Program-made: the position numbers and the translations under genes | Part shown: one piece after another, positions 191 to 9,702 of the stretch | Layout: each line of letters begins with the position of its first letter | Numbering within the stretch: position 1 is the stretch's first letter | Origin: Patescibacteria group bacterium | Lineage (GTDB): Bacteria; Patescibacteriota; Patescibacteriia; Magasanikbacterales; UBA922 | Assembly: GCA_028687045.1 (NCBI GenBank) | Contig: JAQUAW010000005.1 | Location: forward strand, 1-51,912 | Length of the DNA stretch: 51,912 bases | Direction of reading: 5' to 3' | The notes under the pieces: model-generated | Databases searched by the model: none | What the model was told of the DNA's origin: nothing | What the model saw: the letters and a program-made list of their open reading frames with translations, nothing else

Positions 191-192
191 TG

Positions 193-276
193 TACCGCGG
201 GCGGGACTTGAACCCGCACGACATCACTGCCAAGGGATTTTAAGTCCCTCGTGTATACCAGTTTCACCACCGCGGC
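193..276 (-). tRNA. tRNA-Leu (anticodon UAA)
   Basis: This is an 84-nt class II tRNA with a long variable arm. The acceptor arms are GCCGCGG and CCGCGGT (one G-U pair), the discriminator is A, and the anticodon loop is CTTAAAA, giving UAA. CCA is not encoded. It lies 31 bases downstream of the displaced 3' end of tRNA-His (308-317), so the two were probably one His-Leu transcription unit before the element inserted. No promoter is visible directly upstream; the nearest upstream DNA is the end of the recombinase gene, which overlaps the tRNA on the same strand. Confidence 0.95.
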
Positions 277-1882
277 ATATTTGAATTGTATGGCAAATCT
301 CCAAAGGGGTGGCCAACGGGAATTGACCAATCACTTCTTTTACCTGTTTAAAAAAATCTTTGTATTCATCTTTAACCTGTATGCCAATTATTTTTTCATC
401 TTTTATCCATATTGCTTCAATTAATAGTATTATCCAGGACCTCAATTCTTCTGGAGATTTTATAATTTTTTTATATTCTCTTTCAAAATTATTTATTATC
501 TCTGAAATTAGTTTCTTTTTGTATTTTACTATATTTGATTTAGTCGACATCTTTTCATATAGGTCTATCTCAGATTTTATAGGTTTTATATAGTTAAGGT
601 ATTGAGTTCTTGTAATAGTGCCAGCCTCGACAAACATAAAATTATAATCTTGTAACTTTTTGTTTAGTTTTTTTATTCTTTTTTCATTGGCTTGTGCTCC
701 ATTATTTTTTTCAATTTCTGTATTTGCTTTTTCTATAATTTCTTCCTTCAATTTATCTGGCAATACTAAGCCAGCCATAAAGTGGTACATCTGTTTGTCT
801 ATCTTTTCTGACATCGCCCTTTTCTGGGTGCAACCATTATATTCTTTGTTTACTTTACAAGTATATGTAGCTATGCCACCCCCTTTTCTAGGGAGTGTTT
901 CACAGTACATTTTTGGACTGAGTGGGTTTATATCTAGTTCTTTTTCTATCCTTTCACGACAATGTTGACAATAGACCAAACCTTTTAACAGATAGAATTT
1001 ATCTTTTGATGTTGGTCTCCCACTACTAGACCCTTTTCGTAATCTTAATGATTCAACCTGGTTGAATAATTCTTCAGATATTATGGCAGGGTGTTTACCA
1101 TCCAATTCGGGGTAGTTTTTTCTAGGTGAAAAGACCTTTCCTAAATATGTTCTGTTGGCTAGTATACCTCTTATTGAGCTATTTGTAAAGGGTCTGTTGT
1201 TGTTAGTTCTATAACCATTTGAGTTCATTATTTGTGCTAATTCTCTAATTGAATATTTGGAAGTAGAGTACATTCTAAATATTTCTTTAATAATATTGGC
1301 CTTTTCTTCATCAATTTTCCACTCTCTTGAATATATTTTTCTGTTTGTTGCAGGATCTTCACCCAAAATATCTTTTTTATATCCCATTGCTGGTATACCT
1401 CCAGGCTGGTCGCCACGTCTTCTTTTTTCTCTTATTGCTGTTTTTATCCAAAAACTTAGTTGTTTACTATAATAAGCATCAAATAGCTCGCTTATACCTT
1501 CATTGAGAAAAGAATTAGGATCATCCCAGTCGCCAAATGGTTGTGTAACTGAAATTACACCCACATTTAGATTCTCTCTTAGGTATGTTTTTGATTTCCG
1601 TGCATCTCCAACATTTCTTGCAAATCTAGAAGTATGATAGACCAAGACATAATCAAACTGTCCTTGTTCAGCATCTTCCATCATATCTTGAAATTCTAAA
1701 CGGTTCTCTATTTTACGGCCAGAGGTCAAGTCTTTATACCAATGTACAATTTTCATATTGTTGTTATCGGCGTACTCTGATATAGCTCTTTTTTGTGCCT
1801 CTGGGGAATATCCTTTGCCCTGCTCTTTGGTACTTTCTCTTATATAACCCACTGCCTTTTTTGTTATATCTTTGTTGTCCAT
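224..1882 (-). CDS. Large serine recombinase (site-specific integrase)
   Basis: A 552-residue large serine recombinase that would cut and rejoin DNA at attachment sites to integrate and excise the element. The N-terminal resolvase domain has YIRES with Ser17 as the probable nucleophile and the HTSRFARN arginine motif. A recombinase domain follows, with PAMGYKKD and IREIFRMYS-like helices near residues 160-240. A zinc-ribbon region has a CxxC near residue 310 and two further cysteines, and a coiled coil follows near residues 390-470. The last 29 residues are read from host DNA (displaced tRNA-His 3' end and tRNA-Leu). Across the rebuilt circular junction the frame would instead end after FPL with 18 other residues, about 541 aa in all. 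The ATG at 1882 faces the excisionase-like gene. Confidence 0.93.
   Translation of the reverse strand: MDNKDITKKAVGYIRESTKEQGKGYSPEAQKRAISEYADNNNMKIVHWYKDLTSGRKIENRLEFQDMMEDAEQGQFDYVLVYHTSRFARNVGDARKSKTYLRENLNVGVISVTQPFGDWDDPNSFLNEGISELFDAYYSKQLSFWIKTAIREKRRRGDQPGGIPAMGYKKDILGEDPATNRKIYSREWKIDEEKANIIKEIFRMYSTSKYSIRELAQIMNSNGYRTNNNRPFTNSSIRGILANRTYLGKVFSPRKNYPELDGKHPAIISEELFNQVESLRLRKGSSSGRPTSKDKFYLLKGLVYCQHCRERIEKELDINPLSPKMYCETLPRKGGGIATYTCKVNKEYNGCTQKRAMSEKIDKQMYHFMAGLVLPDKLKEEIIEKANTEIEKNNGAQANEKRIKKLNKKLQDYNFMFVEAGTITRTQYLNYIKPIKSEIDLYEKMSTKSNIVKYKKKLISEIINNFEREYKKIIKSPEELRSWIILLIEAIWIKDEKIIGIQVKDEYKDFFKQVKEVIGQFPLATPLEICHTIQICRGGETGIHEGLKIPWQ
308..326 (-). pseudogene. Displaced 3' end of host tRNA-His (attL)
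   Basis: On the minus strand this reads TCAATTCCC then GTTGGCCACC, which is the T-loop, T-stem 3' strand and acceptor 3' strand of a tRNA-His. Its TGGCCAC arm pairs perfectly with GTGGCCA of the broken tRNA at 9578-9640, and not with the intact element tRNA-His, which has GTGGCTA. Joining 9640-9578 to 317-308 rebuilds a 73-nt tRNA, the same length as the intact copy. Confidence 0.85.
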
Positions 1883-1911
1883 ATAAAATTGTCGTTGTTT
1901 TAGCTAAAAAA

Positions 1912-1940
1912 TTGACATTTTGTGTTGAAAATTATATAAT
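1912..1940 (+). promoter_or_regulatory. Promoter of the excisionase-like gene
   Basis: TTGACA (1912-1917), 17-bp spacer, TATAAT (1935-1940): a full consensus match in the divergent spacer between the recombinase and the HTH gene at 1970. Confidence 0.85.
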
Positions 1941-1969
1941 AATGTTGAATTTATGTCAAATATTTTTTT

Positions 1970-2149
1970 ATGGATACAAAAAGGGAAAAATTACTTACAA
2001 TTAAACAGGTCGCTAGCATTTTGAATGTACATCTTGAAACATTGAGACGTTGGGATAATGCTGGTAATCTTAAGTCTATACGTGTTTCAAGTAAAGGACA
2101 TAGAAGATACAGAAAATCTGAAATAGAAAAGTTGATAAGTAATAAATAA
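1970..2149 (+). CDS. Excisionase-like MerR-family HTH protein
   Basis: A 59-residue basic protein with a winged-helix MerR/excisionase-type DNA-binding fold. LTIKQVASILNVHLETLRRW is a helix-turn-helix of the kind that begins such domains, and GHRRYRKSEIEKLI is the usual wing and third helix. It covers essentially the whole protein, with no effector domain. It is divergent from the recombinase gene, has its own consensus promoter, and is closed by a strong terminator. The likely roles (inference) are as recombination directionality factor for excision, or as repressor of the recombinase gene. A short ATG at 1953 is in another frame. Confidence 0.8.
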   Translation: MDTKREKLLTIKQVASILNVHLETLRRWDNAGNLKSIRVSSKGHRRYRKSEIEKLISNK

Positions 2150-2177
2150 AAACAGGGTTTAAGCACCCTGTTTTTTG
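2150..2177 (+). terminator. Terminator after the excisionase-like gene
   Basis: AACAGGGT and ACCCTGTT form a perfect stem around a 6-nt loop, followed by a T-run, directly after the stop codon at 2147-2149. Confidence 0.9.
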
Positions 2178-2192
2178 TGGTATTTGTTTAGA

Positions 2193-2209
2193 CCTAAAAT
2201 GTATTTTAT
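2193..2209. repeat. Palindromic flank, right-hand copy near 3274
   Basis: The 16 bases agacctaaaatgtatt match the copy at 3271-3286 except for one base. This copy is an imperfect palindrome and overlaps the 3' end of the gene between them. Confidence 0.5.
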
Positions 2210-3258
2210 GTTTGTTTTTTTAGTGCATCAAATGCGTCAAGTACATTCTGCAGAGCTTGTTTTTCTGTATTTGAAATAACTCTGTCGTGGTAGTATTGAC
2301 TTCCTTGATAACGAATTTTTGTTTCTTTTGAGGTAATTATCGCTTTAACTATAGGGAGGAAAGTATCTGAATCTATGAATGTAGACCACTCCCATACATA
2401 GGTAGAATTATCTCTTTTAACTTCATCTGGGTAAAGTGTGAATGTTTGGTCATCTGTTTTTATAATGTAACTATTGATAAATAGCCAATCATTTCCACTG
2501 TATTGTACACTGAGGGACAGATATTTACCTAATGTGGGGTGGTCAATAATATTTAGGTAAAAACCATTGTAGTTTGTATATTTTGGACTACTTTTGTCCG
2601 TATAATAAGTAATATTTTTTATATCATCTTCTTTTACTCTCATCTTTGAAAGTGATTGTTTGATTTGTTTTTCTTCTTCTGCCTTGGCTATCGCTTCAGC
2701 TTTTTCTTTTTCTTTTTGCTTTGCTTCTTCCTGGGCTTGTTTTTCAGCAAGGGTTGCTTTCTCTTCTTTAGTCAGTTCTCTATTTATTGTCAGTGATGTA
2801 CTTGTTGTGTATTCACCTTTTGTCGCCACTACGTTGATTTTGTTTATCATATCTGACAAAGGAATATCATAAGCAAATTCTTTACTCTCATTTTTAATAA
2901 GACGTCCGTTTATTTTTATTGTTGCTCCCCCCAAATTAACATTTCCCTTTATTTCAGCGTTTTTTTCTGTAGTTGTTGTATTGTCCATTGGTTCAGTAAT
3001 TTGTATTGTAAGTGTCTTATCTATTTCAGCTTGTTTTGAAGAATTTTCTACTGATTTGAAAAGTATTAATGACATAGATACTAAAACTATAGTAATGATA
3101 ATTTTAATACTTTTATTTAAGCTGGTTTTTTTCCAAAGATACCATAGAGCAATAAAAGGTAATGCCACCAATACAAACTGCCACAGTACTAAACCTAAGA
3201 TGATTATAATCGTCCATTTTATGATTTTTTTATTTTTATTTTCTTTGTTTTCTTCCAT
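2206..3258 (-). CDS. Membrane-anchored protein with coiled coil, unknown function
   Basis: About 350 residues from the chosen ATG; an in-frame ATG at 3285 lies inside a palindrome and is less likely. A basic N-terminus is followed by two or three closely spaced hydrophobic helices (within about residues 15-80). Next comes a beta-rich segment with LTIQITEPMD and NAEIKGNV (residues about 85-165) resembling an Ig-like or bacterial-adhesin-type module. A charged Ala/Glu/Lys coiled coil follows (about 170-205), then a C-terminal globular region with many Tyr and Trp. I do not recognise the C-terminal family. The topology suggests a cell-surface domain. It is flanked by near-identical palindromes. 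Confidence 0.75.
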   Translation of the reverse strand: MEENKENKNKKIIKWTIIIILGLVLWQFVLVALPFIALWYLWKKTSLNKSIKIIITIVLVSMSLILFKSVENSSKQAEIDKTLTIQITEPMDNTTTTEKNAEIKGNVNLGGATIKINGRLIKNESKEFAYDIPLSDMINKINVVATKGEYTTSTSLTINRELTKEEKATLAEKQAQEEAKQKEKEKAEAIAKAEEEKQIKQSLSKMRVKEDDIKNITYYTDKSSPKYTNYNGFYLNIIDHPTLGKYLSLSVQYSGNDWLFINSYIIKTDDQTFTLYPDEVKRDNSTYVWEWSTFIDSDTFLPIVKAIITSKETKIRYQGSQYYHDRVISNTEKQALQNVLDAFDALKKQT

Positions 3259-3270
3259 ATGATTATTGTT

Positions 3271-3291
3271 AGACCTAAAATGCATTTTAGG
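3271..3291. repeat. 18-bp perfect palindrome upstream of the membrane protein gene
   Basis: cctaaaatgcattttagg (3274-3291) is a perfect palindrome. With its imperfect relative at 2193-2209 it brackets one gene as a direct repeat. Confidence 0.6.
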
Positions 3292-3311
3292 TTAAATTAT
3301 TTTTAGGCAAC

Positions 3312-3463
3312 AAAAAAGGGTAGCCTAACCTGACTACCCACTATTCGAGAACCAAAAGGTCCTGTTTGTGGTGGTTGGACTACCCGTCTCTGTACACAAA
3401 CAGAGAACAAGCAGTCCCTAAGACCTTTTATTATTTTTTCTCGAATATATATTGTAGGTAGTC
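3312..3463 (-). ncRNA. Candidate structured RNA 1 of the element
   Basis: The minus strand has a promoter (3470-3498), about 150 nt of heavily self-complementary sequence, and a terminator (stem 3318-3323/3334-3339 plus a T-run). The body folds as a long rod: a perfect 10-bp stem (3342-3351 with 3438-3447), then 8 bp (3354-3361 with 3422-3429), 5 bp (3377-3381 with 3413-3417), and a 7-bp hairpin (3387-3393 with 3400-3406). No reading frame covers it. The rod with internal loops recalls 6S RNA, but I see no proof of that family. An antisense or copy-control role is also possible. Confidence 0.65.
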
Positions 3464-3469
3464 ACAAAC

Positions 3470-3498
3470 AATATATAACATTTTTGGCTTATTGTAAA
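3470..3498 (-). promoter_or_regulatory. Promoter of candidate RNA 1
   Basis: On the minus strand TTTACA (3493-3498), 17-bp spacer, TATATT (3470-3475). Predicted start near 3463. Confidence 0.65.
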
Positions 3499-3518
3499 GA
3501 CATCCTTTTATAACTTTG

Positions 3519-3548
3519 TTGACTTTTGAGGGTTTTTGATGCTAGTAT
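3519..3548 (+). promoter_or_regulatory. Possible promoter of the PIN-domain gene
   Basis: TTGACT (3519-3524), 18-bp spacer, TAGTAT (3543-3548), 25 bases before the start codon. Confidence 0.45.
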
Positions 3549-3573
3549 TTATAGGTAACAATTAAAAAATTAA

Positions 3574-4695
3574 ATGAAAAATAATCAAAAAACTAAAATT
3601 GTAGTGGATACTAATTTTGTACATTATGATTTGGATGATAAGTTAGATAAAATATTTAATGGGAATCTAACCTATATTAAGAAATTTATAGAAGAGAATG
3701 ACTTATCTGACAAGTTGACAATAGTTGTCCCTGACTTTGTTATTCAAGAAAGAATATCTCAGTTGGCGTGGGACACTGAGATAAAAGTATCTAAGATTTT
3801 AGAAAATTTAGATAAGTTAAAAACTTTGAGGGTTGGTGTTAATGTTAAGGAGCTTTTAAAAAAAGACCATAAGAAGATAATCACAAGAAGAGCTTATAAA
3901 ATCTTAAAAGACAACGCTATAGAAATATTGGATACTGTTAAATTTGATTCAGGAGTTCTTATGGACAGGTCTCTAAAAAAGAAGGCTCCATTCACCAAAG
4001 GGGGTGATAAAGGTTTTAAGGATACTGTTATTTGGTTATCAATACTTGAATATGTAAAGAAAAATCCTAATTTTGATTATATTTTTTGTACAAACGATAA
4101 TGTTTTTGGTTCAGATTCTTGCAAAGAAGAATTTAAAACATTTTCAAAAAAGAATTATTGTATTCAGGATAATACAACTAAACTGAAGGAACATTTAGAT
4201 GAAAAATATATTTTGAAATTAGAATTAAATAAAATATATTTTGAAGTTTCTGAAGAAATTAAAAAAAGAGCCGGTACAATTACTTTGGAGGCTCTGTCTT
4301 ACTATAAAAATATATCAAGTATTAGGTGGTCTACAGCTAGCAATTTTTTTAGCGAAAATGTGTATAGTTTTCCTGAAGAGGAAAAAAATAAAGATGACAA
4401 AGATAACTTTGACTTTTCGAATATGAAGATAGAGGATATTTCACAATCGGAGTCTAATGCTGAACAATTTATTGTTAATTTAACTTTGACTTTAAAAAAC
4501 TTAAATGAAAATTCAAACTTGAATAGGTATCGCAATTTTTATAGTGTGACAGAGGATCCTGTTGTTAGATTTGGAAGTGATGGCCTTTATCACAGAAGAA
4601 ATGATACTATATTTTTAAGTGTGACATTGCAGTATGATAAAAGTATTGGTTTTGTGAGTGTTTTAGAGTCAAGAAACAAAATGGTGGCGTTTTAA
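3574..4695 (+). CDS. PIN-domain protein (DUF4935-like), probable RNase
   Basis: 373 residues. The N-terminal 190 or so read as a PIN nuclease domain of the DUF4935/PIN_4 type: KIVVDTNFVHYD holds the first acidic residue, PDFVIQERISQ the second, GFKDTVIWLSILEYV the third, and IFCTNDNVFGSD the last. These acidic residues would bind the metal that cleaves RNA. The C-terminal 180 residues are beta-rich and not recognised. PIN proteins of this type often occur in toxin or defence settings (family knowledge), but no antitoxin gene is adjacent. The structured RNA promoter on the opposite strand lies about 75 bases upstream. Confidence 0.8.
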   Translation: MKNNQKTKIVVDTNFVHYDLDDKLDKIFNGNLTYIKKFIEENDLSDKLTIVVPDFVIQERISQLAWDTEIKVSKILENLDKLKTLRVGVNVKELLKKDHKKIITRRAYKILKDNAIEILDTVKFDSGVLMDRSLKKKAPFTKGGDKGFKDTVIWLSILEYVKKNPNFDYIFCTNDNVFGSDSCKEEFKTFSKKNYCIQDNTTKLKEHLDEKYILKLELNKIYFEVSEEIKKRAGTITLEALSYYKNISSIRWSTASNFFSENVYSFPEEEKNKDDKDNFDFSNMKIEDISQSESNAEQFIVNLTLTLKNLNENSNLNRYRNFYSVTEDPVVRFGSDGLYHRRNDTIFLSVTLQYDKSIGFVSVLESRNKMVAF

Positions 4696-4726
4696 CTGTA
4701 TAATACTTTGTGGGGCTTCAAAAACT

Positions 4727-4796
4727 AAGCTCTAAACGATTTTTCTTTGTTATTTGATAAAATATATATAGACAAGCTTTGTTATGTTTAGAGCTT
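4727..4796. repeat. Inverted repeat with 48-nt loop
   Basis: aagctctaaac (4727-4737) and gtttagagctt (4786-4796) are perfect 11-nt complements. The right arm is followed by a T-run, so this may serve as the terminator of the PIN gene. The loop contains an AT-rich stretch. Confidence 0.6.
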
Positions 4797-4818
4797 GTTT
4801 TTTTGTGTCTGAGAGTAT

Positions 4819-4927
4819 CGCCTATCAGCAAAGCTGATGGCGTTAGCAAAGTAGCAAGAATACTAAGAAACGGACGTTGCCAGGAACGAGAGCTTCTAAA
4901 GGAAAGTATTCTTGCTACATTGCTAAC
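4819..4927. repeat. Tandem hairpins, possible replication origin
   Basis: A compact hairpin (CGCC-t-ATCAGC at 4819-4829 with GCTGATGGCG at 4833-4842) is followed by long arms of 23 nt (4842-4864 and 4905-4927) that match at 21 positions around a 40-nt loop. Together with the 4727-4796 repeat this fills much of the 400-bp gap between two convergent genes. No coding sequence is supported here. Multi-hairpin intergenic regions act as origins in filamentous phages and rolling-circle plasmids; the neighbouring gene II/X-like initiator makes that the leading guess. Positions 4928-5098 show nothing clear. Confidence 0.6.
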
Positions 4928-5098
4928 ATTGTTGACCTTTGCAATTTGTCCAGTTAATCTTAATTTAATTTTGCTTTAATTAGCCATTTCATTTTAGACA
5001 AAAAAGACACCTATGTATTTTAATTCAGCACCAGACTGTCTTAATTTGTACAATAGATGTCCATTTTTTTAGACGTTTTAATATAGTTATACTTTGTT

Positions 5099-6199
5099 CT
5101 ACAACCAACTGTGTTTTATACCAAAGAGCCTTAGTATCTCTCTTAGAGAACTTTTACTCCCTATACTTTGTTTTTTTATTTGTTTTGCTTTTTTTTGTAG
5201 AATATTTTCTACTATTTTGATTCTTGTACTCCAAGTTTGTCTGCTTCCATATTCTTTTCTAGATTGTCCTAGTCCTTTTGTCTGAATTAGTATTATCAAA
5301 TATAGGACCTTTTCTTTAACACTTGCCTTGATATTAGGATCATCCAGAATAATTTTTTGTAATTTATCAGCATAAGCTCTATTAGACAAAAAAGTAATTG
5401 GATTACCATATATTTTATCTACTTCTCTTTTGAGTATGTCTGACCATATTTTTTCACAAAATATATCTTTCAATTTAGGTTCTTGTATACCATATTTCCC
5501 CCATCTGTTTTTTATAGATTGAGATTTCTTTAGGGTAAACTCAAAACGTAATAATTCTTGATGTCTTTTTTGATATTTTGATAGAATTTTTTGTTCTGCT
5601 ATAGTTTTATATGGAGTTTGTTGTATTTCTGCTATTTTGTTATATGCTGTGAACTTTATGTTCGTATTACCAAAATTAATACTGGAGCCATTATATTCTT
5701 TATATAGCGTATAGTAGAAATTTTTAGTTCTTGGACGAAAGTTTACTCTGGAAATTTCAGACAGAATTTCATAAGAGAATTTATTCGTTGTTAAGTCTTT
5801 TCGGATAGCTACTGTGTCTATCACGGCTTCTTCTATGTCTTTAATTGTTATTTTATTTAAACCTATTTTGCGTATGAATGTATAGAGACTTTTTACTACC
5901 CTAGTATAGTCTCTATCCCTTATGGGAGTAACATTTTCACTATTTATCAACTTTCCAACGGAAAATTCTATAATGAGATTTGAAGTTATGTGATAGTAAT
6001 TAGAATAGGTAACAGAGTATTTAGGTATATAATTTCCTTTTTGTTTTTCTTCCTGTCTCCAATTGTTGTTAGTATATATTTGTCTATAATTTGTACGTCC
6101 ATTTTTGTCTGAACTTGTTTCGTGGGATACTTCCTTGAAGTATGGGTTATGCTTTATATTTTTATGAGAATAAGATATTTTTAGCTTTATTGTATCCAT
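5099..6199 (-). CDS. Probable rolling-circle replication initiator (phage gene II/X-like)
   Basis: 366 basic residues. The centre and C-terminal half carry motifs that I associate with the phage/plasmid gene II/X replication family: a Tyr-rich YYTLYKEYNG region, then IKFTAYNKIAEI, then ELLRFEFTLKKS. In that family the protein nicks one strand at the origin through a tyrosine and starts rolling-circle synthesis. No classic HUH motif is obvious, so the call rests on overall pattern. It lies 6 bases after a 64-aa gene, so the two are probably co-transcribed and translationally coupled. The promoter, leader hairpin and RNA 2 upstream suggest controlled expression. Confidence 0.55.
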   Translation of the reverse strand: MDTIKLKISYSHKNIKHNPYFKEVSHETSSDKNGRTNYRQIYTNNNWRQEEKQKGNYIPKYSVTYSNYYHITSNLIIEFSVGKLINSENVTPIRDRDYTRVVKSLYTFIRKIGLNKITIKDIEEAVIDTVAIRKDLTTNKFSYEILSEISRVNFRPRTKNFYYTLYKEYNGSSINFGNTNIKFTAYNKIAEIQQTPYKTIAEQKILSKYQKRHQELLRFEFTLKKSQSIKNRWGKYGIQEPKLKDIFCEKIWSDILKREVDKIYGNPITFLSNRAYADKLQKIILDDPNIKASVKEKVLYLIILIQTKGLGQSRKEYGSRQTWSTRIKIVENILQKKAKQIKKQSIGSKSSLREILRLFGIKHSWL

Positions 6200-6205
6200 A
6201 TGGGG

Positions 6206-6400
6206 CTAATCATTTAAGATTATCTCTTTCAATCTTTTGTAGGATATTTTTTCTCCTTCTTTTTTTATTTCTTCTGAATGTTCATCTAATAAATTATCCA
6301 AATGGTTTACCATTAATAAAGCTAAAGCCTCTGTAATAGTGGGTGGTTTGCTACTGAAGTTAGTCTTCTGTTCCCATTTTTTGTCTTTAGTATTGGACAT
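6206..6400 (-). CDS. Small protein in the replication operon, unknown function
   Basis: 64 residues, predicted mostly helical and charged: PPTITEALALLMVNHLDNLLDEHSEEI is followed by a lysine-rich end. The stop is 6 bases before the initiator start, in the same frame direction, which supports a real gene. The size and position fit a copy-control or accessory replication protein, but no family is recognised. The start codon directly follows a terminator-like leader hairpin. Confidence 0.65.
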   Translation of the reverse strand: MSNTKDKKWEQKTNFSSKPPTITEALALLMVNHLDNLLDEHSEEIKKEGEKISYKRLKEIILND

Positions 6401-6411
6401 ATTAAATAAAA

Positions 6412-6450
6412 AATGAGGGTCCGTATTTTTGAAACATTTTGACCCTCATT
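6412..6450 (-). promoter_or_regulatory. Leader hairpin (attenuator-like) of the replication operon
   Basis: AATGAGGGTC (6412-6421) and GACCCTCATT (6441-6450) are perfect complements around a 19-nt loop. On the minus strand the stem is followed by a T-run and, within about 12 bases, by the start codon at 6400. A TATAAT box on the same strand (6466-6471) would place the transcript start just upstream, which makes the hairpin an intrinsic terminator inside the leader. It could alternatively just end read-through from upstream. Confidence 0.6.
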
Positions 6451-6477
6451 GATTATTTATTGTAAATTATAAAGAAC

Positions 6478-6600
6478 AAAAAACGCCTTAAAGAAATGAA
6501 CTAAATGGTAATTCATTTCCTTAAAGCGTCGAATTTTTCGTCCGCAGACTGTTGGACAGTCCTTTCCAAAAGGTTTTTCTTGGCAATTATCTTCAATTGT
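6478..6600 (-). ncRNA. Candidate structured RNA 2 of the element
   Basis: A transcript of about 120 nt is predicted from a minus-strand promoter (6607-6635) to an intrinsic terminator. The terminator stem pairs 6483-6500 with 6512-6529 at about 16 of 18 positions and ends in a T-run. Between them are short hairpins: GACTGT/ACAGTC, CGAA/UUCG, and CCTTT/AAAGG. No start codon opens a useful frame. It lies just upstream of the replication operon on the same strand, as copy-control RNAs often do, but I see no long complementarity to the operon leader. Confidence 0.6.
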
Positions 6601-6606
6601 GTTTAT

Positions 6607-6635
6607 ACAATAACATATTTTTTAAGTTTTGTCAA
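6607..6635 (-). promoter_or_regulatory. Promoter of candidate RNA 2
   Basis: On the minus strand TTGACA (6630-6635), 17-bp spacer, TATTGT (6607-6612). Confidence 0.7.
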
Positions 6636-6657
6636 CGTTTATAATATTAATGAATGT

Positions 6658-7098
6658 CTAGATACTAGCATTTTTATCTTTTAAAATTCTTAAATTATAC
6701 CAAGTACCACATTCATCATTTAGACAAATGGCGTTTCCATTATGAACCCATAGACTAAGAACTTTTTGCAAATTTATTTTTACAGCTTTTTCATTTTCTG
6801 AATTTTTTACAAATTCAGCTAGAATTTCTTGTTTATCTTCGCTTTCAAAAACTTTTTGATTTTCATTCCAATCTTTTTCTTTAAGTTTTATAGTTATTTG
6901 AGGATAAAGCTTACTTACAATTTCTACTGGCAACGACTGAATGATATTTTTATTTTTGTGTTTTTTACTTTTTTCCAATCTTTTTGTTTTGTTATCTTTG
7001 AAATTTACTGGATTGTAAAAGACATCAAACTTATTTTTTAAAGAATCATAACGACAAAGCTCTAAACCGCAGTCTAGGCACCAAAATTTTTGTATCAT
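6658..7098 (-). CDS. Zinc-ribbon-like protein, unknown function
   Basis: 146 residues. A CxxC near the N-terminus (CLDCG, residues 7-10) and CLNDECG near residue 125-131 could together bind one zinc ion as a split ribbon. The middle is very lysine-rich. It starts 8 bases after the DUF4238 gene stops, on the same strand, so the two are one operon. I do not recognise the family. The promoter of RNA 2 starts about 20 bases past its stop codon. Confidence 0.7.
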   Translation of the reverse strand: MIQKFWCLDCGLELCRYDSLKNKFDVFYNPVNFKDNKTKRLEKSKKHKNKNIIQSLPVEIVSKLYPQITIKLKEKDWNENQKVFESEDKQEILAEFVKNSENEKAVKINLQKVLSLWVHNGNAICLNDECGTWYNLRILKDKNASI

Positions 7099-7106
7099 AC
7101 ATTTAG

Positions 7107-7973
7107 CTATTTACTAGAATTAGATTTTATTTTTTCTAAAACTTTTTTATCACAACAAAATAGAGAAGGTGACTGACGCATCACTCTAAAATTTAATTGT
7201 TCAATTGTGTCTTTATCAGCTTTTTTATAATTAGGCAAATCATACATCCAAGAGGCAAACAAAGTTATTTTTGAAGAAAGAGGAATTGATATTTCCACAT
7301 CTCTATGTGCCAGCCCAACGTCACTACCCCAGCTATTTATCCCATATTTTTGTTCCCTAAGTGGGGCCGTCATACAAAATGGATTGTCTGAACCTATATA
7401 ATTGAGTTCGTCTTCTTCAATATATAAAAAAGAAATATTCATTTTGTTTATATATTTATGTGTAGTAAGTATAATTTTTAACATTGAGTATGAATGGTGT
7501 TTTTTATAGTCAGTTAAAAATTCATCTAATTCTTCTAGTTTAAAAGAATTTTTTTTGTTAGTATCAAAAATATGTGGGATTTGTTCTACTTTTATTTTAT
7601 CATCGTCTATTGATTTTTGTAATTCGTTTACTCTCTCTCGTATCTTTTCCCAATTTTGTTTAGAGTGTTCTATTATGGGTTTAACCCGTTGCATAAAAGA
7701 CGCAACAAAGACAGAAAGGGTTACTCTTTCTTTTTCTGTAAGTTTTTTAAATTTGGATATTTTATTTTTATAGATTTCTAAAAAACCATCTTCTATTTGG
7801 TGTAAAACTTCTTCTATATCTTTTGGATAAAATTCTGTTTCTTTAAATTCATTTATTGGATTACTTCTATAAATTTCTTTTTCTGATTTTAATACCCAAA
7901 TATGTCCTTTATCATCTATGAAATTTGATAGATAACTTTTATTTGGAATATAGTGATATTTTGGTTTACCCAT
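7107..7973 (-). CDS. DUF4238 family protein
   Basis: 288 residues. The opening HYIPNKSYLSNFID (from residue 7) and HIWVLKSEKE match the start of DUF4238 proteins, and a later FLYIEEDELNYIGSDNPF segment fits the family's second conserved block (family knowledge; exact boundaries not computed). The biochemical function of the family is unknown; members are frequent in mobile elements and near defence genes. The gene leads an operon with the zinc-ribbon-like gene and is divergent from the Panacea pair. Confidence 0.75.
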   Translation of the reverse strand: MGKPKYHYIPNKSYLSNFIDDKGHIWVLKSEKEIYRSNPINEFKETEFYPKDIEEVLHQIEDGFLEIYKNKISKFKKLTEKERVTLSVFVASFMQRVKPIIEHSKQNWEKIRERVNELQKSIDDDKIKVEQIPHIFDTNKKNSFKLEELDEFLTDYKKHHSYSMLKIILTTHKYINKMNISFLYIEEDELNYIGSDNPFCMTAPLREQKYGINSWGSDVGLAHRDVEISIPLSSKITLFASWMYDLPNYKKADKDTIEQLNFRVMRQSPSLFCCDKKVLEKIKSNSSK

Positions 7974-8052
7974 AATTTGTTAATAACAAAATTGGTTTAT
8001 TTTTTTCATTGGAAGTATATCACATATTTAAGGTGTATGTGTATATGTATGT

Positions 8053-8082
8053 TTGGCTAAAATTTAATTTATGTGGTATACT
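8053..8082 (+). promoter_or_regulatory. Promoter of the Panacea pair
   Basis: TTGGCT (8053-8058), 18-bp spacer, TATACT (8077-8082). The expected start near 8089 is only about 2 bases before the ATG at 8091, so the mRNA would be almost leaderless. Confidence 0.55.
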
Positions 8083-8090
8083 CATAACAT

Positions 8091-8582
8091 ATGGAAGCTA
8101 TAAAATGGGAGGAAAAAACCAAACAATTAGTTGCCTTTATTTTAAAGGAACGTTTGGATACAACTGTTACAGGGTTGATTAAAATTTGTTATTTAATTGA
8201 TTTGACTAGCAAACAAAGGAATAATAAACAAATTTCAGAGTTTTCTTATAGAAGATATAACTATGGACCATTTGATGAAAAAATTTATCCAATTGTTACT
8301 GAACTAAATAATGAAAATATCATAAATGGTGAGACTAGATATGCTAACGCAGGGGACGAATATGTGGTTTACAATTTTAATAATCAATTTGAAAATTTAT
8401 CTTTTGATAAACTTTCTGAAGAAGAAATTACTATTATCAAAGATACATTAAAGCAACTTGAAGGTTTGGGAGCCAAAGTATTAACAGAAGTTGCATATAA
8501 AACAAAACCAATGTTAGCTTTTAATGCTTCTCTTGGTGGAAGAGAACATTTCAATGAGTTATTAGATTTAGATGTAAAGTAA
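8091..8582 (+). CDS. Panacea-domain (DUF4065/SocA-like) antitoxin
   Basis: 163 residues, the usual size for a single Panacea domain. Typical features are the helical start with LIKICYLIDL, then FSYRRYNYGPFDEKIYPIVTEL near residues 52-73, and a helical C-terminal part. Panacea proteins neutralise many unrelated toxins in two-gene systems (family knowledge). The next gene begins 4 bases after this stop, so the pair is arranged like a toxin-antitoxin operon. A role in stabilising the element is inferred. Confidence 0.8.
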   Translation: MEAIKWEEKTKQLVAFILKERLDTTVTGLIKICYLIDLTSKQRNNKQISEFSYRRYNYGPFDEKIYPIVTELNNENIINGETRYANAGDEYVVYNFNNQFENLSFDKLSEEEITIIKDTLKQLEGLGAKVLTEVAYKTKPMLAFNASLGGREHFNELLDLDVK

Positions 8583-8586
8583 TAAT

Positions 8587-9099
8587 ATGGAACTTGGCGA
8601 CAATATATTGTTAGCTATTATACAAGAAAAACATTTGTATTGGGAAAAAAATTCATTAGACAAAAAAACAGGTGAGTCAAAAGATAAATATAAACTTGCC
8701 TGTAAAAAGATAGAGGTAATCAATGCCTTTTCTTTTTTTGTAGGTAGTAGTCAGGAGCGTTTAGCTGGTAAGTACTTAACATATAAAACAGAAGATGACG
8801 ATTGGTGTGAAAAATACACTCATTTATTTAGAGGAACTTCTTATTTTGATTTGAGTAATGCTGAAATAGTAGAGGAAAGTGAATTATTAACTAAAATAAG
8901 AAAAGGAAATACCGTTTTTTCAGTTGTAGCAAAGTTGAGGGATGATAGCTTTAGTAGACTTATAAGTATGGCTCCAAATATTAGGAGAGCTGGCAATATT
9001 TATGATAATGAAAAGCGTAACCTTATATTAATGGCTTTGGGTGAGGAAAGTATAAAGGAAGAGGCTGGCAAAGTATTAAAAAATTTAGACCTAGTATAA
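8587..9099 (+). CDS. Unknown partner of the Panacea antitoxin, possible toxin
   Basis: 170 residues, start 4 bases after the Panacea gene, the position of the toxin in PanAT-type pairs. I do not recognise the fold. The first 60 residues are helical and basic. The centre holds KYTHLFRGTSYFDLSNAEI, and the C-terminus is helical with RRAGNIYDNEKRNLILMALG. There is no signal peptide or membrane segment, so the target would be cytoplasmic. A strong bidirectional terminator follows. Confidence 0.7.
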   Translation: MELGDNILLAIIQEKHLYWEKNSLDKKTGESKDKYKLACKKIEVINAFSFFVGSSQERLAGKYLTYKTEDDDWCEKYTHLFRGTSYFDLSNAEIVEESELLTKIRKGNTVFSVVAKLRDDSFSRLISMAPNIRRAGNIYDNEKRNLILMALGEESIKEEAGKVLKNLDLV

Positions 9100-9106
9100 A
9101 ATAAAA

Positions 9107-9137
9107 AACTTCCTACATAACAGGAAGTTTTATTTTT
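9107..9137. terminator. Bidirectional terminator
   Basis: AACTTCCT and AGGAAGTT pair perfectly around 7 nt with T-rich runs on both sides. It ends the Panacea operon on the plus strand and the tRNA-His transcript on the minus strand. Confidence 0.88.
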
Positions 9138-9156
9138 TTGTGGAGACCCACTTGGG

Positions 9157-9229
9157 GGTGGCTAACGGGAATTGAACCCGTATTGTCGGTACCACAAACC
9201 GAAGTAATAACCATTATACCATAGCCACC
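9157..9229 (-). tRNA. Intact tRNA-His (anticodon GUG), carried by the element
   Basis: 73 nt with the extra 5' G (G-1) opposite C73 that marks tRNA-His. The acceptor pairs GTGGCTA with TAGCCAC, the T-stem pairs ACGGG with CCCGT, and the anticodon loop holds GTG. It lies inside the element between the two att cores. It differs from the rebuilt host tRNA-His in the sixth acceptor pair and in one D-arm base, while the anticodon and T-arms are identical. It is 22 bases downstream of the 85-aa gene and would be transcribed with it. Confidence 0.95.
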
Positions 9230-9251
9230 CCTAAAAGGGCCTTGTAAATTT

Positions 9252-9509
9252 TTATGAACTAATTTTTTCTATATCTTTGTATTGTCCTAACTTTATTTCC
9301 CAACTAGCTATTGTTTCTTCTGAATCTTTTATTTTTCCAATTATTTCCCAACCATATTCTGCGATAATAGGTTGTTGGCTGATATAGTCAAAACCTTTTC
9401 TTTCTTCTGGAAAAGTCCTTACTATACCTACAATTTTAATACCATTATTAATTTCTATTTCTACCTTGTCTCCTATTTTAATAGTTTCTTTATTCTTGTC
9501 AATGTACAT
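9252..9509 (-). CDS. Small protein between attR and tRNA-His, unknown function
   Basis: 85 residues, beta-rich, with GDKVEIEINNGIKIVGIVRTF near the start, resembling a small barrel (possibly KOW- or SH3-like; not certain). No membrane segment. In the rebuilt circle it begins 7 bases after the recombinase stop, so it would be the last protein gene of the recombinase operon. In the integrated state it lies behind the host tRNA-His promoter. Confidence 0.65.
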   Translation of the reverse strand: MYIDKNKETIKIGDKVEIEINNGIKIVGIVRTFPEERKGFDYISQQPIIAEYGWEIIGKIKDSEETIASWEIKLGQYKDIEKISS

Positions 9510-9577
9510 AATTTGTTTAAGTTAACAGTATTTTCTTCCAAATTCTTATGGTTTCTCTTGAAAAGTGATTGTTCAAT

Positions 9578-9640
9578 GGGAATTGAACCCGTATTGTCGG
9601 TACCACAAACCGAAGTAATAACCATTATACAATGGCCACC
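9578..9640 (-). pseudogene. Broken 5' part of host tRNA-His (attR)
   Basis: 63 nt of tRNA-His from G-1 through the T-loop to CCC. The native 3' end is replaced by element sequence, so the acceptor GTGGCCA now faces TGAACAA, with only 4 of 7 positions able to pair, and one T-stem pair is lost. The remnant should not be processed into a working tRNA. The missing end lies at 308-317. Confidence 0.9.
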
Positions 9641-9673
9641 CCTCTAGGGACTTTTATATATTAGACAGGAGCT

Positions 9674-9702
9674 ATTATAAAGAAAAATAAGTATTTTGTC
9701 AA
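9674..9702 (-). promoter_or_regulatory. Host promoter of the split tRNA-His
   Basis: On the minus strand TTGACA (9697-9702), 17-bp spacer, TATAAT (9674-9679), a full consensus promoter. It now reads into the broken tRNA, the 85-aa gene and the element tRNA-His. Confidence 0.88.

Follow-up and report, generated by a model that had tools for sequence, protein, structure and literature searches.

The stretch of DNA analysed here (the window; 51,912 nucleotides) is an entire contig from the genome of an ultra-small bacterium of the Patescibacteria (G000; 1.15 Mb, 55 contigs, 95.6% complete). It holds an integrative element of about 9.26 kb (one core copy counted; approximately 320–9579) within the T-arm of a host tRNA-His gene, and the junctions together with an empty site place the element itself at 321–9578. 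At attR, the 5′ 62 nt of the broken host gene were identified on the minus strand at 9579–9640 by Rfam and alignment. This fragment stops at the T-arm, scores 34.1 bits with the Rfam tRNA model, matches the reconstructed host tRNA at 100% identity across 65 nt and does not fold as a cloverleaf. At attL, the displaced 3′ part, comprising the CC core and CGTTGGCCACC, lies on the minus strand at 308–320 and is continuous in the empty site; the crossover dinucleotide CC reads as GG at 319–320 of the plus strand. Along the minus strand, the other end of the element is organized as a host promoter (9702–9674; TTGACA-17-TATAAT, a perfect 12/12 sigma-70 consensus), the 5′ part of tRNA-His (9640–9579), non-host DNA with an 85-aa ORF (9509–9252; no family match and not common to relatives), a second tRNA (9229–9157) and a terminator-like hairpin (9131–9105).

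The 308–320 fragment, which the original prediction did not mention, adjoins the integrase gene and is the 3′ part that the host tRNA lacks at attR. With it, the second end of the element and the size of the inserted unit are determined. The ownership of each tRNA piece is settled by the acceptor stems, which match within the host halves (GGTGGCC/GGCCACC) and differ in the element copy (GGTGGCT/AGCCACC). In G003, a genome of the same genus, promoter, tRNA-His and tRNA-Leu follow one another without interruption, representing an intact empty site; its flanks agree with those of the window at 166 of 193 aligned columns (5′ side) and 114 of 129 aligned columns (3′ side). The host tRNA-Leu(TAA), which immediately follows tRNA-His where the site is empty, is found at 192–276 (minus strand) in the window. 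The matching halves and the uninterrupted G003 site thus demonstrate a precise insertion of about 9.26 kb.

At the attL end, the element encodes a large serine recombinase (LSR; 224–1882, minus strand) with Resolvase and Recombinase domains (Pfam PF00239, 6.7e-26; PF07508, 7.2e-20; phrog_95 integrase, 2.6e-85), whose ORF crosses attL so that its last residues are host-encoded. The remaining genes include a membrane protein with a Glucodextran_B domain (2206–3285, minus), homologous to cargo of the G420 and L214 elements, a PIN_12 domain protein (3574–4695, plus), a rolling-circle-type replication protein (5099–6199, minus) and a DUF4238 protein (7107–7973, minus). The replication protein is homologous (30% identity, 2.7e-30) to a G023 protein matching Phage_CRI/G2P, which suggests that the excised circle replicates by the rolling-circle mechanism. 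A SocA/Panacea-domain gene (8091–9099, plus, including its partner) is directly followed by a 170-aa gene without a family match, and the two may form a new toxin-antitoxin pair. Cargo varies across related elements, with PIN_12, DUF4238, the SocA/Panacea pair, Schlafen AlbA_2, SNase, reverse transcriptase and AAA ATPases represented; PADLOC and PHROGs gave little information on it. The end-proximal integrase is the serine recombinase, with a tyrosine recombinase as additional cargo in L204 and G328. The tyrosine recombinases at L204 5536–6666 and L105 15491–16600, located beside the LSR in two elements, are homologous to each other (46% identity).

An intact tRNA-His inside the element

The second tRNA at 9157–9229 (minus strand) is an intact tRNA-His(GTG). 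ARAGORN (9153–9229), Rfam (62.2 bits) and a cloverleaf fold with a G-1:C73 pair agree on this assignment, bearing out the original prediction of a complete tRNA-His inside the element. In the host assembly, no further tRNA-His was present among 42 typed Rfam tRNA hits, and a DNA search with tRNA-His likewise recovered only the broken and the element copies. Since the assemblies are draft MAGs, with G000 at 95.6% completeness, an overlooked gene is possible but unlikely. In the single-contig genome G603, which carries a related element, no additional tRNA-His was found among 47 tRNA hits (located, and typed with ARAGORN as far as possible): its sole two tRNA-His are again a broken copy and an element copy. 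These genome-wide counts revealed no further intact gene in G000 or G603, in agreement with the earlier claim that the element breaks the only tRNA-His of its host and supplies its own. As read from the sequence, the substitute is predicted to be transcribed, functional and essential.

Comparison of element and host tRNA-His copies revealed compensatory acceptor-stem changes in most elements, and over the first ~60 nt the two copies are only 65% (G328), 74% (L214) and 79% (G465) identical. Because they are often unlike the host's own tRNA, the element tRNAs evidently came with the element. A flank, CCCTTTTAGGGG, and the stem GGTGGCT/AGCCACC are common to the tRNAs of the window and G023 elements, although both hosts have GGTGGCC. 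The L204 copy is 100% identical to that of its host over the compared stretch, so that recent capture or gene conversion may account for some element copies. We also considered whether the element tRNAs escape attack by the integrase they accompany. The copies of G023, G603 and G131 have a changed CC core, but the window copy retains it, and such immunity was rejected as a general feature.

Tandem duplication of the host tRNA-His followed by decay of one copy, with no element involved, would account for a fragment next to an intact gene, and fragments beside intact tRNAs are indeed common for other tRNAs in this host genome. We nevertheless give this explanation practically no weight. The two parts of the host gene, with 9.26 kb between them, rejoin exactly at a palindromic attP, the G003 site is uninterrupted, and the element copies diverge from the host copy with compensatory stem changes; the displaced 3′ half at 308–320 and the existence of sibling elements already refute it. 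The same abundance of fragments led us to reject a further candidate, namely that tRNA-His fragments near intact copies in relatives (G004, G018, G029, G033 and G021) are relics of old elements. In a control, fragments occurred at 11 of 28 tRNA-His loci and at 17 of 74 loci of other tRNAs, most of the control cases being in the window's own genome; given that other tRNAs of these genomes show similar fragments, those of tRNA-His are no proof of element decay. As a separate observation, tRNA fragments beside intact tRNAs (L001, L002, L003, L008, L041, L050 and L056) are common in the bacterial family of the host, and some of them carry a GC-rich palindromic insertion within the T-loop or D-loop.

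Relatives of the element and the position of the substitute tRNA

LSR searches covered family, order, class and phylum samples as well as named genomes. A single-sequence scan of contigs returned no LSR relatives, and an alignment-based scan returned 21 loci. Relatives with 36–45% identity were found in Patescibacteria, in Komeilibacteria (G328), Jacksonbacteria (G146), Uhrbacteria (G387), Paceibacterota (L204), Magasanikbacteria (G023) and unclassified members of the group (G219, G525, G465, G524, G131 and L214), together with G420 and G603. They are rare, occurring in 7 of 381 genomes of the class sample and 6 of 380 of the phylum sample; no LSR relative was present among 17 pattern hits in viral contigs. 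A sibling element was located in a Candidatus Magasanikbacteria MAG assigned to the family of the host. All readable LSR genes terminate at a tRNA remnant. The G603 LSR was matched only in part owing to a long N run in the record, and its tRNA-His junctions follow the same plan.

Beyond the window, eight LSR relatives and one partial match, all in Patescibacteria, are inserted in tRNA-His with both ends found, the ends being assembled together or, in G131 and G219, located on different contigs of one genome. Nine of the resulting ten elements are in direct orientation (the window's G000, G023, G420, G328, G603, G465, G131, L204 and L214) and one is inverted (G219). A complete tRNA-His lies inside the LSR-distal end in 10 of 10, a count conditional on assembly, as no far end could be located for G146, G524 and G525. 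The tRNA lies 92–1540 bp from the core in the direct elements and 90–1540 bp inside the end across all ten. The conserved full tRNA at this end, anticipated in the original prediction, is thus present in every tRNA-His element for which both ends could be compared.

A natural control is offered by G387, whose LSR lies in tRNA-Pro(GGG). A tRNA-Pro(GGG) is as a rule dispensable when a TGG isoacceptor is present, and the tRNA-Pro(TGG) and tRNA-Pro(CGG) genes of G387 are intact. In this single case of a presumably dispensable target, no tRNA was found in the element. Together with its presence in all ten tRNA-His elements, this argues that replacement is a conserved function. It also bears on the view that the tRNA is translational cargo, similar to phage tRNAs that serve the codon usage of the phage itself. 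Patescibacteria phages can carry tRNAs (PMC13059738), yet here the isotype is always that of the broken target, the position is always LSR-distal, and the tRNA is missing where the target is dispensable, making this role very improbable.

Two further arrangements were observed among the relatives. In G131, two broken tRNA-His copies and an intact one are arrayed in tandem with ~100-bp steps (L121 1500–1906; G131:C97), with an attP arm at the end of each broken copy, which points to nested or serial insertion. The sister LSRs of G219 and G525 (L104 1826–1896, L125 and L149) are oppositely oriented, as would be expected if their core dinucleotide were GG instead of CC.

LSR relatives in Actinomycetota and Chloroflexota (L215–L223), which form a monophyletic outgroup in the tree, adjoin tRNA-Asp with their ORFs running into it and constitute another tRNA-targeting serine integrase group. 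ARAGORN reads these tRNA-Asp as complete, with the same 3′ end adjoining the LSR, and this may represent a repair mode of the outgroup. Its apparently intact tRNAs suggest that an attP-borne 3′ end completes the gene and are the one observation in favour of classical restoration, in which the tRNA 3′ end in attP would repair the target of the Patescibacteria elements as well. However, the junction tRNA-His of the Patescibacteria members lacks the 3′ strand of the acceptor stem, and for the window the sequence itself refutes restoration, leaving it a negligible probability. Serine integrases have attP/attB overlaps of only about two bases and do not need longer ones; with so little shared sequence, the host tRNA is not rebuilt from an overlapping fragment. 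The solution of tyrosine-integrase islands, in which a long block of identity restores the 3′ end, is thus not automatically available to them.

We therefore consider it highly probable that the LSR element inserts in the tRNA-His T-arm and carries a complete substitute tRNA-His. The LSR would insert the element at the CC dinucleotide of the T-arm, with the substitute carried just within the LSR-distal end. In elements of the usual orientation, this tRNA would come to lie downstream of the host promoter and probably be transcribed from this promoter, from an element promoter or from both, and its transcript would then mature like that of any ordinary tRNA.

In the window, transcription could plausibly run through from the host promoter, since no terminator-like site was found between this promoter and the element tRNA. 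The element also contains a promoter-like site of its own (9475–9502, minus strand; TTGACA-16-TAAAAT) with an 11/12 match, a score reached by 3 of 200 shuffles; a 10/12 match near the G465 element tRNA is of a kind often reached by shuffles (80 of 200). In the nine direct elements the substitute is oriented in the transcription direction of the host tRNA. The tRNA of the inverted G219 element points away from the host promoter and has its own TTGACT-17-TATAAT upstream, which indicates that capture of the host promoter is not essential. The earlier proposal that the element places its tRNA behind the host promoter thus stands by position in nine of ten elements and fails as a general rule, given the inversion of G219 and the internal match in the window, and we rejected promoter capture as a universal defining step. 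The 85-aa ORF was likewise rejected as a conserved partner, since different elements have different ORFs in the interval from attR to the tRNA, and some have no ORF there. In G219 (L125 1575–1830), a terminator-like hairpin, CCTCTTGC...GCAAGAGGTTTTT, lies between the element tRNA and the promoter-like site, a configuration in which attenuation is possible.

An integrase gene spanning attP and the possible retention of the element

Joining the two ends of the element rebuilds attP, which in the window and seven relatives is a near-palindrome centred on CC, with 13–18 of 22 positions symmetric about the core in the eight elements. The CC core corresponds to the same two T-arm bases in every direct-oriented tRNA-His element. 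Moreover, attP lies inside the LSR gene, and in all eight members tested the reading frame crosses it in the same phase (window 319–1882 and 9517–9578, minus strand; L077, L103, L105, L150/L169, L204, L214 and L107/L121). In the circular form, the right arm of attP (9517–9578, minus strand) encodes the LSR C-terminal tail PLNNHFSRETIRIWKKILLT up to the stop codon. This tail is conserved, approximately L-T-K-D-F-P...L-W-K-x-I-K-L-x-[NG]-C: residues 9–30 after the core have a mean pairwise score of 31.3 versus 15.0 (sd 0.6) for shuffles, and the other reading frames past the core score about 14 versus 12.6–12.9. Frame continuity and tail conservation across attP independently confirm the element ends.

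Integration accordingly replaces the LSR tail with residues encoded in the 3′ end of the host tRNA (PLATP in the window and G023). Only the C-terminal tail of about 20–30 aa is exchanged, and the catalytic and DNA-binding parts remain intact. Such an exchange could possibly serve as a built-in directionality switch.

The original prediction regarded the substitute tRNA as a form of addiction that makes the element hard to lose. What stands of this claim is that the element tRNA, as the sole copy, would be under selection; the cargo is left unprotected, and clean excision is predicted to restore the host gene. In the strict sense, an addiction device would be maintained because its loss kills the host, the tRNA acting like an antitoxin to the element's own insertion damage. 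The status of the element tRNA as the only copy is in line with this, as is the swap of the conserved LSR tail, a possible hindrance to excision, and addiction-module-like behaviour has been proposed for PICI islands that damage a tRNA att site (PMC10111431). Against it, both host halves at attL and attR are undamaged, so that precise excision would restore the gene and cured cells should live, and protection against deletion extends to the tRNA and not to the cargo: a deletion removing the element tRNA should be lethal, while cargo loss should be free. We consider an addiction device unlikely on balance; the claim would be stronger if excision were impaired.

Tentative as well, and less likely than not, is a two-part lock in which the sole tRNA-His is replaced and the LSR tail is swapped at integration, so that the integrated enzyme could not excise the element alone. 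The tail residues would be exchanged for those from the tRNA 3′ end (such as PLATP), and the direction of recombination would be set by the integration event itself and not by a separate directionality factor. Repeated insertions would then replace the host tRNA-His one after another, as the G131 array may illustrate.

Comparison with known systems

Like the Islander tRNA islands of tyrosine integrases (PMC4383910), the elements described here insert inside a tRNA gene, leave a displaced fragment at the far end and safeguard tRNA function. Unlike them, they use a serine integrase with a crossover core of ~2 bp and supply a whole tRNA gene instead of a 3′ fragment, while the host copy stays broken. 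In PICI islands (PMC10111431), the host likewise comes to rely on a tRNA whose function the island provides, and the authors proposed addiction-module-like behaviour; there the displaced fragment is damaged and excision is harmful, whereas here both halves are undamaged. A single-copy essential RNA gene (tmRNA) is also the target of the CcrB-like serine recombinase of Dehalococcoides ssrA islands (PMC3146451), but direct ssrA repeats mark the ends of these islands, and no full-length replacement gene is mentioned in the passages considered. Tycheposons (as described in PMC10872708) are likewise mobile and bordered on one side by a tRNA gene; they employ a tyrosine instead of a serine recombinase.

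With respect to attP inside the integrase gene and an integrase altered by integration, the elements resemble the archaeal SSV-type "suicidal" tyrosine integrases (PMC8371274) and the Int of myxophage Mx8. According to the published description (PMC8371274), "suicidal" integrases occur only among the tyrosine recombinases of archaea; here the enzyme belongs to the serine family, the hosts are bacteria and only the C-terminal tail is exchanged.

The tRNA-island literature (2014) stated that LSRs were not known to target tRNA genes, and in work on Mycobacterium prophages, tRNA sites are listed for tyrosine integrases while serine-integrase PICIs are described as integrating elsewhere (PMC10654092). 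In Patescibacteria, a whole clade of serine integrases does target tRNA genes; earlier reports of this outside the open-access literature are possible.

Carrying the entire target gene represents a second route, besides repair by an attP fragment, to the use of an essential gene as a landing site, and the clade-wide carriage of a full tRNA meets the lethality problem that such a target poses. This route accounts for the foreign or duplicated tRNA-His genes of Patescibacteria, allows such elements to be recognized in draft genomes and makes integrases with defined sites available. The attP-spanning integrase gene, in turn, makes the choice of direction by serine integrases, a long-standing question, testable in a natural system.
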